This document shows positions 50,591 through 55,992 of a stretch of 64,000 nucleotides of DNA, one piece after another. The position numbers were made by a program, and so were the translations under genes. The stretch's first letter is position 1. The number at the start of each line of letters is the position of its first letter. Below the pieces are notes generated by a model. That model was not told the DNA's origin. It saw nothing but the letters and a program-made list of their open reading frames with translations, and ran no database searches. Source of the stretch: Candidatus Poseidoniaceae archaeon (GTDB lineage: Archaea; Thermoplasmatota; Poseidoniia; Poseidoniales; Poseidoniaceae); NCBI GenBank assembly GCA_938084675.1, contig CALKGM010000016.1, positions 1-64,000 on the forward strand, in the 5' to 3' direction.

Positions 50591-51784
50591 ATGAGTTGGT
50601 CAAAGGTACTGGAGCGACAGCGGGAATGGAATTCTGCAAACGCTTCACAACTGCGCTTAACCGAAGAAGAAGCAACGTTGCTCTACAATGATGCTCCACT
50701 GCACGCACTCATGCAGGCAGCTCACGCTAGAAGGCTAGCAATGCATCCTGACGGGAAGGTAACGTATCTCATTGACCGGAACATCAACTACACAAATATC
50801 TGCACCATCAACTGTCAGTTTTGTTCATTCTATCGTCCTCCTGGACACGCAGAGACGTATACTCAAACATTTGAAGAAATCTCAAACCGTATCATTGAAC
50901 TTGAAGCCATTGGGGGTGTTCGCATTTTGATGCAAGGAGGGGTGAACCCCGAATTGCCCATCGAATGGTACACCGATTTGATTGCCCATTTATGCAAACA
51001 ACACCCCACCATCCACTTGGATTGCTTTAGCCCGATTGAAATTGAAGGAATTGCTGAGGTTTCAGGCTTGTCAACACTTGAGGTTCTCACACTCTTCCAA
51101 AACGCAGGCATGCACGGACTTCCAGGGGGAGGGGCTGAGATGCTCGTTGAGGATGTGCGCACCGATGTCTCGCCCAAGAAAGGTCATCCTTCAAACTGGC
51201 TAAGAGTTATGGAAGAAGCTCAATCTTTGGGTCTCACAACGAGCGCAACCAACGTGATTGGATTTGGAGAGTCAATGGCGCAGCGAGTTGAACACATGGC
51301 TCGCATAAGGGAGCTACAGGATGCATCATTACAACAGCACGGTAAAGGATTCACATCGTTTATTGCATGGCCGGTTCAATTGGAAACAAACACCTTTGGT
51401 AAACGAAACAAAGGACAAAACAAACACACTCTAGGTGCTGGTTCCTCTGAATATCTCCGACACATTGCAATTTCCCGGCTCTATTTAGACAGTATTGAAC
51501 ACATACAAGCATCATGGCCAACAATGGGCCTTGCAATCTCGCAGATGGCCCTCTTGGGAGGGGCAGATGATGCAGGCTCAACAATGATGGAAGAGAATGT
51601 TGTATCCGCATCTGGTACGAAGAAATTGGAAGCCTCTGAGATAGAACTCCAGGATTCGATTCGAAGAGCAGGTTTCAAACCACAGCGGAGAAACAGCGAC
51701 TACGAGGAATTAGACACACCTCTCGTATCGCAAGATCCGAGCTTGATGGCTGCTCCTACACCGAACGCATCTAAGATGTCGTAG
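50591..51784 (+). CDS. mqnC: Radical SAM dehypoxanthine futalosine cyclase (MqnC)
   Basis: 397 residues. Radical SAM cluster motif C71-x3-C75-x2-C78 in NYTNICTINCQFCSFYR, with the MqnC/CofH-family context YLIDRNINYTN. Other family blocks: GGVRILMQGGVNPELPIEWY, LDCFSPIEIEGIA, AGMHGLPGGGAEMLVEDVR. It catalyses a ring-forming step of the futalosine route to menaquinone. MqnE and CofH/CofG are close relatives; the 'DRNINYTN' and 'MQGGVNP' phrases favour MqnC. An SD (gagggag) precedes ATG 50591. It overlaps the convergent lipoprotein gene by 14 nt. Confidence 0.85.
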   Translation: MSWSKVLERQREWNSANASQLRLTEEEATLLYNDAPLHALMQAAHARRLAMHPDGKVTYLIDRNINYTNICTINCQFCSFYRPPGHAETYTQTFEEISNRIIELEAIGGVRILMQGGVNPELPIEWYTDLIAHLCKQHPTIHLDCFSPIEIEGIAEVSGLSTLEVLTLFQNAGMHGLPGGGAEMLVEDVRTDVSPKKGHPSNWLRVMEEAQSLGLTTSATNVIGFGESMAQRVEHMARIRELQDASLQQHGKGFTSFIAWPVQLETNTFGKRNKGQNKHTLGAGSSEYLRHIAISRLYLDSIEHIQASWPTMGLAISQMALLGGADDAGSTMMEENVVSASGTKKLEASEIELQDSIRRAGFKPQRRNSDYEELDTPLVSQDPSLMAAPTPNASKMS

Positions 51785-54700
51785 GGCCGTAGTAAACCAC
51801 CCATATCACAGCCCGAATATTTCGTTGGCCGTTTCCAACACCGTCCGAAGGGACATATTCCTGTCCGTTGTAATATCCACGGTAGACCATGTGATTGTTG
51901 TTATCGGTACCATTGTCAACCCAATCTGTGATGTCGTAAGTCCATTGCTTCACATCCTGGCCAGCACACCATCCTGCCCTTCCAAATGGCCATGAACCAA
52001 ATTGATTAGCAACAACGCCGTTACGAACTTCATTTTCACAACCCTCGTTATTATAAACGATTGGATGCCATTCGTAAATTTGGTTAGATCCCATTGTGTA
52101 GTAATGTTGGTGATCGCAGAATTCAGCGCAATTTGCATTATCCTTCCCAAATCCATGGCCGGTAATCGTTGCTACAATTTCGACCTTAGTTGCCCATGAT
52201 GGTGTCGTGAAATTGAGTTGTCTGTTGTACAATGATTCGTTGTTATAGGTGCCATCAAACTGGCCTCCGCTGAAAGCGTAGGTTGCATCAATGGCTCGTT
52301 CGCCACTGCCCCAATTACTGAACAGGAAGGTGACGGTTAAGTCCCCCTTGTTTGCTCCTCCGTACTTGAAGCGCCGTTCTTCACCATCGTCAAGCATAAA
52401 CAAATATGGAGAGATATCAGTCAGCCACTGGCCTTCTCGACCGTAGGTTGTGATCCAACGCATAATCTCAGTACTACACTTTGAAGAATCATTTGAATCA
52501 CAAATGTAGAGGTTGGCTAAATAATCCCATTCGTGACATCCCCCATAACTCTGGTCAGAGTTTTGATATCTGTTTTTACGCTCGTAACAAGCATGTTCAT
52601 GGTACACTTCTAAGGTGTCATATGTAGAAAGGTCATTTGGTAAATCAAATGTGGAATTTGCGAATGATGAGAATCCTCCACCCCAACCACCCGTATGGCG
52701 CTGGAAATCAAGAATATCAATTGCATGTACGCCTGGATCTTGTTCACGAATTTTTACTGGAAATTCTGCAACCCATTGATTTGGCTCATGTGATAAATGG
52801 TACGGGTCATTTGATTGAGTGGTCCATGCGTACAATGAACCTGTTTCTCGGGATAGTTGGAATCTGTCGATTCCCATAAAGAATGGATTATTGAACGAAG
52901 AAATCATTGAACCAAGGCCACCCCCAAGGTTACTCGCGTCAACATCAATGTAGTGGATTCGGTTTCCCCATTTCGTTTCTTCAGAGGTGGTTAAACCCGC
53001 AAGGACACTGTTACGTTGCTGAATGACATCGTTGTGATATGAATTATCAAACGAACCATAGAATAAGTGCATGTTCTCAGGGAGATTACGAATAAATTTA
53101 CCTGGATTTTGCCCCCAAGTTGCTGAATTCGAAGAACCACTTGAATCGGTATACTTGAACATAAACATGTAAACATCATTTCCTGTCCATTCATTCTGGA
53201 AATTATAAGTCCCACTGAGTGTGGGGAATGAAAAGTTGGGGACAGTTTGCATTGGTCCATTCAAGGTTGAGGCACTCGTCCAATTCACAGGAACTTGAAC
53301 AACCGCACATCCTACAGCATCAACAGTCCATCGTTCTGGTGATTCTGGACATACATCCACATTGGCGAAAACTCCGTCTCCATCAAGGTCAGCGCATCCA
53401 ACTGTGTTGACGGTAAGGCCGGCAGGAGTTCCCTCGCACTGATCGAGTGAATCGTTAATGCCGTCTTGGTCGGTATCACGTTGGACCGCAGAACATCCGA
53501 CATCGTTGACAGTTGTAGAATTGAGTGGGGTTTCTGGGCACAAATCTAATGGCGCACCCGTTGAGTTGACATCATTCACACCGTCGTTATCGTCATCATC
53601 ATCTTCAGTGGAATCCTTGCACCCATCTTGGTCCCAATCTGTTGTTGAATTGGTCTGCCAGAGGATAGTCCCTTTTGGACACTGGTCACTTAAATCATCA
53701 AAATCATCATTGTCATCATTGGCATCTTCGTCGAGGTCAGAACAACCATCGCTATCCCAATCGCTGTAATCATTAGAAGTCCAACCGAGTAGGCCTACTG
53801 GACACATATCATCAACATCCAAAACCCCATCCCCATCATCATCTTCATCTTCGTTCGTGTCATGGCATCCATCAGAATCATAATCAGCGGATGGAGTACT
53901 CACCCATCCGTAGGAACCAGGGCATAGGTCAAGAGCGTCAGTAATGCCATCATTGTCGTCGTCATTATCTTCGCTACTGTCTTTACAACCATCTCTATCA
54001 CCATCGGTAGCCTCATTTGAGACCCATCCTTCTTCTTTTCCAATTCCTTGTGGACAAGCGTCGTCAACAGTTGGTATTCCATCTCCATCCTCGTCTAGAC
54101 CAGCGCCTTCTATCACAATTTGAGTTACAAATGTGTCACTTAATTGATTAAATTGGCCACAGATTGCATGGGTTGTGAGGGAGACTGTGTCAGTTGAATC
54201 CGTAAAATCCATGAGTTTCCTCCACGTGGATTCAGGGGTTAAACCAAGAGTTCCGGATGTTCCATCGCTGATTGTGTACGTCAGTGAACAAGTCGTAGGA
54301 CTCGCATGCTCAACTGAACCCTCAAACCAAATCACTCCCGGTTGTTCTAATGTGATACGAGATGGCGCAGTAATAATTGGTGCATCTTCCACGGGCTCAA
54401 CCACTTCAATAAGATGGAGCAACGGCTCTAACGATGGCTCCATTATGCTCGAACCTGCGTTGGTGAACGTCAAGCGAACAATGTATTCTCCAATCAATTC
54501 TGTGGTAAACGACAATTTGTATCCATCTGTTTGCTTCACCCAAGTGAGCTCCTGTAACGATGAAAACGTGGGCGTTAGAACGGAAGGGGTGACATCATAT
54601 TCTCCGACACCGATTTGTTCAACATTTACAAGAAGAGTTGCCTCCTCTCCCATAATAATAGTATTCGGTGCAAGAGCCCAAGATGCTTTGATTTCGTATG

Positions 54701-54809
54701 TTTTGATAGCCTCTTCCTCAATAATCGGTTCGGGCTCGGCACCACTAAGACAACCCGAAATCAGCATGAGCGATACAAAAAAGAGAGCGGATAGACGATG
54801 CTTGTCCAT
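51771..54809 (-). CDS. Lipoprotein with TSP3 repeats and PNGase F-like domain
   Basis: 1012 residues. A lipoprotein signal (LISGC; Cys20 lipidated) indicates an outer-face anchor. After beta domains come thrombospondin type 3 repeats (about 233-503, with DGDRDGC, DYDSDGC, DWDSDGC, DWDQDGC). A ~180-residue unknown linker domain follows, then a domain like PNGase F (about 683-1008) that removes N-glycans from glycoproteins. Compared with the known PNGase F from memory: Asp60 corresponds to Asp762 in CHEWDYLANLY, Glu206 to Glu896 in NCAEFCDHQH, and the PDRAGWCPG block to FGRAGWCAG. Glu118 aligns with Ser831 (FSNW). ATG 54809 is chosen because it gives a lipoprotein signal and no overlap with the upstream gene. 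Confidence 0.88.
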   Translation of the reverse strand: MDKHRLSALFFVSLMLISGCLSGAEPEPIIEEEAIKTYEIKASWALAPNTIIMGEEATLLVNVEQIGVGEYDVTPSVLTPTFSSLQELTWVKQTDGYKLSFTTELIGEYIVRLTFTNAGSSIMEPSLEPLLHLIEVVEPVEDAPIITAPSRITLEQPGVIWFEGSVEHASPTTCSLTYTISDGTSGTLGLTPESTWRKLMDFTDSTDTVSLTTHAICGQFNQLSDTFVTQIVIEGAGLDEDGDGIPTVDDACPQGIGKEEGWVSNEATDGDRDGCKDSSEDNDDDNDGITDALDLCPGSYGWVSTPSADYDSDGCHDTNEDEDDDGDGVLDVDDMCPVGLLGWTSNDYSDWDSDGCSDLDEDANDDNDDFDDLSDQCPKGTILWQTNSTTDWDQDGCKDSTEDDDDDNDGVNDVNSTGAPLDLCPETPLNSTTVNDVGCSAVQRDTDQDGINDSLDQCEGTPAGLTVNTVGCADLDGDGVFANVDVCPESPERWTVDAVGCAVVQVPVNWTSASTLNGPMQTVPNFSFPTLSGTYNFQNEWTGNDVYMFMFKYTDSSGSSNSATWGQNPGKFIRNLPENMHLFYGSFDNSYHNDVIQQRNSVLAGLTTSEETKWGNRIHYIDVDASNLGGGLGSMISSFNNPFFMGIDRFQLSRETGSLYAWTTQSNDPYHLSHEPNQWVAEFPVKIREQDPGVHAIDILDFQRHTGGWGGGFSSFANSTFDLPNDLSTYDTLEVYHEHACYERKNRYQNSDQSYGGCHEWDYLANLYICDSNDSSKCSTEIMRWITTYGREGQWLTDISPYLFMLDDGEERRFKYGGANKGDLTVTFLFSNWGSGERAIDATYAFSGGQFDGTYNNESLYNRQLNFTTPSWATKVEIVATITGHGFGKDNANCAEFCDHQHYYTMGSNQIYEWHPIVYNNEGCENEVRNGVVANQFGSWPFGRAGWCAGQDVKQWTYDITDWVDNGTDNNNHMVYRGYYNGQEYVPSDGVGNGQRNIRAVIWVVYYGPTTS

Positions 54810-54834: not shown

Positions 54835-55992
54835 TCAATGTGTTGATGGAATGACATCCGACTCAGAACGACCATCGTGCAATGGAAGAGTCTCTAAATT
54901 TAGTTCAGTTGAGGAGTAGTGGGCGACTTTTAGTGGTTGCACCCATAACAATGCTCCACCCTTTTCTCGTTCAATTCGAACGATACATTCCCAATGTATT
55001 CTCAGTAGCTCACTACTAACAGTACCTGGCCAGTACGGTTCAGGGGGTGCTAATTCAATGGCCTCACCCGAGGTCCAACGCTGAACAGACCCTTGAGCCA
55101 TGATTCGCATAGGTCGCAAGTAAAGCCCACCTTTGACTTGTTGTAACTCCATAGGTGCATCTTCTCCACCAGCTGTACCATCATCCAATCCAGCCTCCCA
55201 ATGGTGGGGGAGTTCCGTAGAAAGTCCAGGTGGTGGTTGTCGGAGTGTGGTGCGTCCTAGCGCTTCAAGCAACGATTCCCTGGCTGGCGGGAGAATCCCT
55301 ACCCGCCAAGTAACATCTGCATGTTTCCATCCCTCATCCCATTCCGGGAACTTCATGTCAATTGTGAGATGTTGATTGGAAACGCTATCTTTCATGAAAT
55401 CGATATGGGGAGGTTCTAGATTACGCTGGAGAAAGATATTCTGCCTGCGGAGTTCGATCAAGTTTGCAATGACACGGATCAGGAGGGGAGCAAAAATAAG
55501 AGGTACAACAACGGTGGCGAGGATTGGATAATCAAGAAGTCCCCAACGAACACTATCTAATCCATACACCGGTATTCCAAGGAATGTTAAGATTGGGGAT
55601 ACAGCAAGATAGGCTAGACTGATGAGAAGAACAATCACAACACCGTTGATGAATTTCCTCAAGATGTTGTGAATTGGATTTGGAATCAAATACCATCCCC
55701 TTCTTTGACGATTGACGACCCGAGGGAATGTATTGGATTCAAGCCAATGCTCTTGTTCTTCCGGACTAAGAATCTCATCATTATACCTATAACGTCGCTC
55801 AATCATCCAAGAATTCTCTTCACCCAGTTTGAAAGGTGGACAGTGTGATTGAAGTTGTTCTAACGCAAGGTCCTTTGATTCATAAGAACCGATTATCACG
55901 TGATTTTCCGCAATTGGAAGGGCTTCAGGCCTCCAACGATTGGGTTCAAACGGAGGGTATCTAATACGTTGCTCTTCAATCAAATCCGACAC
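54835..55992 (-). CDS. Membrane protein, unknown
   Basis: 385 residues. An N-terminal soluble region (1-110, with Trp/Tyr-rich stretches and EEQEHWLES), two membrane helices (about 115-140 and 152-182), and a C-terminal soluble region. I recognise no family. The start is GTG 55992, supported by GAGGTG 5 nt upstream. The upstream GGR-family gene ends 9 nt before. The PNGase F-like lipoprotein begins 25 nt downstream, so the three genes may be co-transcribed. Confidence 0.7.
   Translation of the reverse strand: MSDLIEEQRIRYPPFEPNRWRPEALPIAENHVIIGSYESKDLALEQLQSHCPPFKLGEENSWMIERRYRYNDEILSPEEQEHWLESNTFPRVVNRQRRGWYLIPNPIHNILRKFINGVVIVLLISLAYLAVSPILTFLGIPVYGLDSVRWGLLDYPILATVVVPLIFAPLLIRVIANLIELRRQNIFLQRNLEPPHIDFMKDSVSNQHLTIDMKFPEWDEGWKHADVTWRVGILPPARESLLEALGRTTLRQPPPGLSTELPHHWEAGLDDGTAGGEDAPMELQQVKGGLYLRPMRIMAQGSVQRWTSGEAIELAPPEPYWPGTVSSELLRIHWECIVRIEREKGGALLWVQPLKVAHYSSTELNLETLPLHDGRSESDVIPSTH

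Follow-up and report, generated by a model that had tools for sequence, protein, structure and literature searches.

The window analysed here is the whole stretch of 64,000 nucleotides at positions 1 to 64,000 (forward strand) of contig CALKGM010000016.1, from assembly GCA_938084675.1 of a Candidatus Poseidoniaceae archaeon. Its minus strand carries, at 51771-54809, the gene of a lipoprotein of 1012 amino acids (aa), whose C-terminal half combines a thioredoxin-like (Tx-like) domain with a catalytic domain of the peptide-N-glycosidase (PNGase) F type. Membership of the latter in the PNGase F superfamily (PF09112/PF09113) is close to certain. Among characterised proteins, sequence comparison places it nearest to Ngly2, an acid PNGase of animals, rather than to PNGase F, a bacterial enzyme used in laboratories. 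The features of the gene are reported below by window coordinates, with the basis of each assignment in brackets; they include immunoglobulin (Ig)-like domains and thrombospondin type 3 (TSP3)-like repeats, and pLDDT indicates the predicted local distance difference test score of a structural model.

51771..54809, minus strand: whole gene of the Tx-PNGase lipoprotein, 1012 aa (open frame; relatives intact, without internal stops)
54750..54809, minus strand: signal peptide and lipobox LISG-C (Cys20), predicted membrane anchor (sequence; signal and [x][x][GA]C pattern kept in relatives)
54111..54701, minus strand: two Ig-like beta-sandwich domains, about residues 37-233, probable spacer (AlphaFold2, pLDDT 85; Foldseek)
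53301..54095, minus strand: Asp-rich TSP3-like repeats, about residues 239-503 (DxDxDG pattern, by eye)
52740..53291, minus strand: Tx-like domain without Cys-X-X-Cys, about residues 507-690 (profile and model matches)
52884..52919, minus strand: site matching the PA-domain insertion of Ngly2, with no PA domain here (profile alignment)
51774..52739, minus strand: PNGase F-type double jelly-roll domain, residues 691-1012 (Pfam PF09113; phmmer to 9lwg and 1pnf; Foldseek)
52539..52577, minus strand: extra loop before CHEWD, residues 745-757, specific to Marine Group II (MGII) (not in the rows of Marine Group III (MGIII), Deinococcus, Ngly2 or PNGase F)
52524..52526, minus strand: Asp762, equivalent of catalytic Asp60 in PNGase F and Asp421 in Ngly2 (invariant in 23 diverse archaeal sequences and Deinococcus)
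52356..52367, minus strand: Lys815-Gly818, region of PNGase F Glu118-Trp120 and Ngly2 Trp480, with no Glu and with Gly for Trp (alignments)
52155..52157, minus strand: His885, equivalent of Ngly2 His546, Trp191 in PNGase F (invariant TGHG motif)
52122..52124, minus strand: Glu896, equivalent of catalytic Glu206 in PNGase F and Glu555 in Ngly2 (invariant)
51966..51983, minus strand: GRAGWC motif, with Cys948 at a disulfide position as in PNGase F (kept in nearly all rows)

A first-pass annotation, made from the letters of the sequence alone, had described the product as an archaeal lipoprotein with a PNGase F-type catalytic domain, and this description is borne out by the lipobox, by Pfam, by sequence matches in PDB and by Foldseek. 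Pfam N-glycanase_C matches residues 860-971 (5.1e-18; 65.7 bits, with a cut-off of 25), and matches all 23 aligned relatives as well. N-glycanase_N stays below threshold (12.9 bits against 22.4, for fragment 507-1012), and an E value of 0.1 is reached by 3 of the 23 relatives: of the two Pfam domains anticipated, only the C-terminal one scores above its cut-off. The N-terminal jelly roll is nonetheless covered, as profile and pairwise alignments to 9lwg and 1pnf traverse both jelly rolls. PF09112 gave no match in a search of the archaeon's own genome either; this model is too divergent for the clade, so that its absence says little.

When the last 506 residues or so are compared by sequence with PDB, zebrafish Ngly2 (9lwg) is the best match (1.6e-40), with PNGase F at 8.7e-9; for a profile of 23 archaeal sequences the values are 8e-66 and 2e-13 (about 53 bits), respectively. 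The structure of residues 507-1012 was predicted from a shallow alignment, with moderate confidence (pLDDT 61). Foldseek places Ngly2 on top for this model (4e-24 over 658 columns), followed by PNGase F, PNGase Bb, Bacteroides PNGases and PNGF-II; the double jelly roll, also expected from the letters alone, is matched with a Foldseek probability of 1.00 to 9lwg, 1pgs, 1png, 3pms, 3ks7 and 4r4x.

Homology with Ngly2 is not limited to the PNGase unit, the part recognised in the first-pass annotation: a Tx-like domain, there overlooked, is shared too. A profile of residues 507-691 alone finds a sole significant match in PDB, the Tx-like domain of Ngly2 (E 4e-4); with the whole-region profile, the second half of the same domain aligns just ahead of the PNGase domain, and the 507-1012 model also matches a thioredoxin (Foldseek probability 0.90). 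Residues 507-690 contain no Cys, and therefore cannot form a CXXC oxidoreductase, as in Ngly2. At the site of the PA domain, about 10 archaeal positions face chain residues 193-345 of Ngly2 in the profile alignment, and no Pfam match to a PA domain is found in the archaeal protein or its aligned relatives. The Tx-PNGase pairing thus spans archaea and animals, with the PA domain as a separable part.

The equivalents of the catalytic residues Asp60 and Glu206, as well as the GRAGWC motif, lie where they had been located from the letters. Asp762 and Glu896 are invariant in all aligned archaeal rows and in the Deinococcus relative; Ala mutants of either Ngly2 counterpart, Asp421 or Glu555, are inactive (PMC12753239; PDB numbering in 9lwg is native plus 25, chain Asp446 being Asp421). 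His885 and the cysteines are also strictly invariant in the archaeal alignment. The structure of PNGase F features three disulfides, whose cysteines align in the archaeal protein; a fourth pair, Cys770/Cys778, is common to Ngly2 and the Deinococcus protein, and not to PNGase F. His885 takes the position of Ngly2 His546, one of the two histidines linked by the authors to acid activity (PMC12753239), while at the position of the other, His422, Tyr763 is present.

Glu118 of PNGase F had been aligned by hand with a Ser, but every alignment gives otherwise: the segment found there is RFKYGGANKG, in which, according to the alignment, Glu118 falls opposite Lys815 or one of Tyr816-Gly818, or else the loop is treated as deleted. 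The position is non-acidic also in Ngly2 (KTAPW) and in the Deinococcus protein (LAYW), and type II PNGases have a Gly there, including PNGF-II, which accepts core alpha1,3-fucose (PMC9522356). The E118Q mutant of PNGase F retains at most 0.1% of the activity (PMC9102325). Glu118 is important in PNGase F, but is no general requirement of PNGases; because active Ngly2 also has no acid at this position, the absence of Glu118 alone cannot be taken to indicate that activity is lost. The position of Ngly2 Trp480 is more telling. Trp480 is a sugar-stacking residue, and W480A leaves only feeble activity (PMC12753239). As read from the alignments, Trp is present in MGIII and Deinococcus; the extra loop at 745-757 is found in the same MGII sequences that feature Gly817 instead. 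The two changes suggest that the sugar subsite of MGII enzymes has been rebuilt, and, on sequence grounds, PNGase activity (EC 3.5.1.52) of the MGII enzyme is likely but not assured.

For the N-terminal half, the strand, reading frame and start given in the first-pass annotation are all sustained: the Met at 54809 lies directly ahead of the signal peptide, close relatives have a Met at the same place, and both signal and lipobox are conserved in them. LISGC, at residues 16-20, completes a lipoprotein signature of signal peptide and lipobox Cys, where lipidation is predicted. For the AlphaFold2 model of the Ig-like pair, Foldseek finds tandem Ig domains, titin Z1Z2 (E 3e-8) among them. The TSP3-like repeats score 14 bits with Pfam TSP_3, for a curated cut-off of 25, and 7.6e-7 with the NCBIfam MtsC TSP3 model, under that model's cut-off; the Asp-rich DxDxDG repeats, already noticed at first reading, are plain in the sequence.

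Comparison with known PNGases places the protein next to zebrafish Ngly2 (PDB 9LWG; PMC12753239). Both feature a Tx-like domain that lacks CXXC, a PNGase double jelly roll directly after it, the catalytic Asp and Glu, the His of TGHG (His546 in Ngly2), the extra Cys pair and the GWC motif. Ngly2, in contrast, has a PA insertion inside the Tx-like domain, absent from the archaeal protein, which in turn carries a lipobox, Ig-like domains and a TSP3-like stalk, Tyr for His422, Gly for Trp480 and the extra loop before CHEWD. Ngly2, an enzyme of fish eggs, is an acid PNGase of demonstrated activity, and archaea are not mentioned in the paper that describes it (PMC12753239). The peptide-N-glycosidase F-related protein of Deinococcus radiodurans (WP_010889584.1) is also a lipoprotein, with a PNGase domain 35.5% identical over 286 aa; it shares the TGHG and CAEFC motifs, the Tyr after the catalytic Asp and the absence of Glu at the Glu118 position, but has a PA domain (PF02225, 1.8e-12), keeps Trp at the Trp480 position, and has neither TSP3-like stalk nor extra loop. 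With PNGase F from Elizabethkingia meningoseptica (1PNF), fold, Asp60, Glu206 and the three disulfide Cys pairs are shared; PNGase F, however, has no Tx-like domain, and its Glu118, Trp120, Trp191 and Arg61 are not kept in the archaeal protein. PNGF-II and the group 2 Bacteroides PNGases (4R4X; PMC9522356) share the fold and a non-acidic residue at the Glu118 position, but have an N-terminal bowl-like domain in place of the Tx-like one, and their structural similarity is much weaker.

The gene is no peculiarity of a single genome, but belongs to Poseidoniales. At 37 loci, with one genome per species, the protein is 68-99% identical to the query, and record titles read Marine Group II or unclassified Euryarchaeota; in the search for relatives the gene is present in 38 of 59 genomes. 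In a sample of the phylum, 77 of 390 genomes contain the family, all within the window's own class and nearly always with one copy per genome. These 77 genomes span the window's family, a second one within the same order and a third one beyond it, read as MGIIa, MGIIb and, probably, MGIII. One family member lies in a single-contig genome of 2.06 Mb (G073).

Both MGII families keep the gene order topoisomerase I, geranylgeranyl reductase-like, unknown, PNGase, CofH-like, Xaa-Pro peptidase. Where the PNGase gene is absent from second-family genomes, the unknown and CofH genes lie almost next to each other (in locus L111, for example, at a distance of 22 bp). In one genome of the window's family (G030), the PNGase locus features a 296-residue lipoprotein (L110:8393-9283), which has the lipobox, the N-terminal domain and a short TSP3-like stretch, and no Tx-PNGase part; this is likely to be a truncation remnant. 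Since synteny is kept, absences are clean and a truncated remnant is found, the gene is read as ancestral to Poseidoniales, an old chromosomal gene inherited within the order with lineage losses. Conservation within the MGIIa set is 78-80% in the Tx-like and PNGase parts but 43% in the Ig-like spacer, and therefore selection acts on the catalytic half. Contamination of metagenome-assembled genomes is rejected, as is a recent transfer into MGIIa, because MGIIa and MGIIb loci share their flanking genes and the gene is present in the single-contig genome. Nor is there support for a viral or mobile origin: no relative was found in viral contigs or phage records, and the only plasmid-borne one is the Deinococcus copy. 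Outgroup branches in the gene tree are very long, and no rooting was drawn.

No shared neighbour was found alongside the third-family copies. These copies (L090-L093) encode a shorter precursor, in open frames of 884-898 aa. Their TSP3-like repeats are arranged differently, and the N-terminal jelly roll of the PNGase domain contains a long insertion with Cys.

With its lipid anchor, followed by a spacer and ending in a catalytic head, the protein is expected to work at the cell surface. Lipid-modified Cys20 would anchor it in the membrane, facing outward, while the pair of Ig-like domains and the TSP3-like stalk, presumably stiff and calcium-binding, would keep the Tx-like/PNGase unit at a distance from the cell. 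With Asp762 and Glu896, the enzyme would hydrolyse the amide between Asn and the first N-acetylglucosamine (GlcNAc) of the N-glycan of an extracellular glycoprotein or glycopeptide, so that the glycan comes off whole and Asp stays behind in the chain; glycoproteins, whether free in the water or attached to particles, would then be bare and open to digestion by the cell's secreted peptidases. A proteolytic lifestyle of Poseidoniales is described by Rinke et al. (PMC6461757), and extracellular peptidases in these archaea by Tully et al. (PMC6336850). De-N-glycosylation before proteolysis is the simplest role, and it is probable that the protein is a membrane-anchored, outward-facing PNGase of the Ngly2 subfamily, stripping N-glycans from external glycoproteins and glycopeptides ahead of peptidases. 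As for the single parts, PNGase catalysis is very probable and a surface role on foreign glycoproteins fairly probable; algal glycoproteins as the substrate are a guess.

A number of observations weigh against this role. No acid of the archaeal protein aligns with Glu118, MGIIa and MGIIb share a Gly (Gly817) where Ngly2 has Trp480, and the Tx-PNGase region is modelled with no more than moderate confidence (pLDDT 61). Genes of the GH92, GH18 and aspartylglucosaminidase (asparaginase_2) types were sought in the genome and not found, and therefore the released glycan may not be food; nor do any gene neighbours of the PNGase locus point to glycan use. The changed subsite may also indicate that MGII enzymes are a distinct PNGase variant, rebuilt for N-glycans on which PNGase F and Ngly2 work badly, for instance those of archaea, or algal ones with core alpha1,3-fucose: this is conceivable, at a much lower probability, and would, if true, provide the first de-N-glycosylating enzyme known from archaea. 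The same Gly and extra loop, together with the near loss of activity of W480A in Ngly2 and the frequency of TSP3-like repeats and Ig-like domains in adhesins, would fit a glycan-binding or adhesion protein, which retains the PNGase fold but, through the rebuilding of its cleft on the Trp480/Glu118 side, has little or no catalysis left, and which tethers cells to glycoprotein-rich particles. A mere binder, however, need not keep both acids, while Asp762, Glu896, His885 and the cysteines are strictly invariant, and Trp is retained in MGIII relatives; adhesion without catalysis is accordingly quite doubtful.

An enzyme anchored at the cell surface might be directed to the cell itself, where it would trim or remove the N-glycans that AglB attaches to the archaeon's surface proteins, so as to turn these over or remodel them, and the genome does contain an STT3/AglB gene with a WWDYG motif. 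Yet STT3 is found in 9 of 10 relatives with the PNGase and in 8 of 9 without it, hence no coupling to the host's own N-glycosylation emerges from co-occurrence; the enzyme subfamily is found in Deinococcus too; and PNGase F-type enzymes require a GlcNAc-Asn link, which MGII N-glycan cores may not offer. A self-directed enzyme is unlikely, if slightly less so than an adhesin. Finally, the Pfam clan of PNGase F also includes PHM monooxygenases (PMC8812541), so that a different amidase or peptide-modifying role, e.g. on non-N-glycan amides, may be imagined. It is highly improbable: PHM is not matched by sequence or among the top Foldseek matches, the PNGase catalytic acids are retained, and close structural matches are all annotated as PNGases or PNGase-like.

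The STT3/AglB match (G000, contig C4:66435-67403; locus L116:2460-12077, minus strand) lies in a single open reading frame of 3205 residues, several times the usual AglB length, whose N-terminal part contains a GGSDPWY stretch and the WWDYG motif; frames of 3000-3277 residues hold the match in many relatives.

PNGases of this fold have been discussed for bacteria and, since 2025, for aquatic animals. Direct searches of the open-access literature for archaeal PNGases found none, and PNGase is absent from the main text of both PMC6461757 and PMC6336850. The family described here is an archaeal branch of Ngly2-type PNGases, with its own architecture, undescribed as far as these searches reach. 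The role favoured above, surface de-N-glycosylation ahead of proteolysis, would place a step removing whole N-glycans at the cell surface of uncultured ocean archaea, members of one of the most abundant such groups, that are thought to live on proteins, and offers a testable link from the archaeal Tx-PNGase to marine glycoprotein turnover. Natural variants at the glycan-stacking position could, moreover, serve as glycan-release reagents.

Two genes flank the PNGase locus closely. The convergent CofH-like radical SAM gene overlaps it at the 3' end by 14 bases (window 51771-51784). On the other side, at window 54835-55992 on the minus strand, lies a gene whose 385-aa product matches nothing in Pfam at 0.001; it is kept beside the locus in nearly all MGII genomes examined, even in those without the PNGase.

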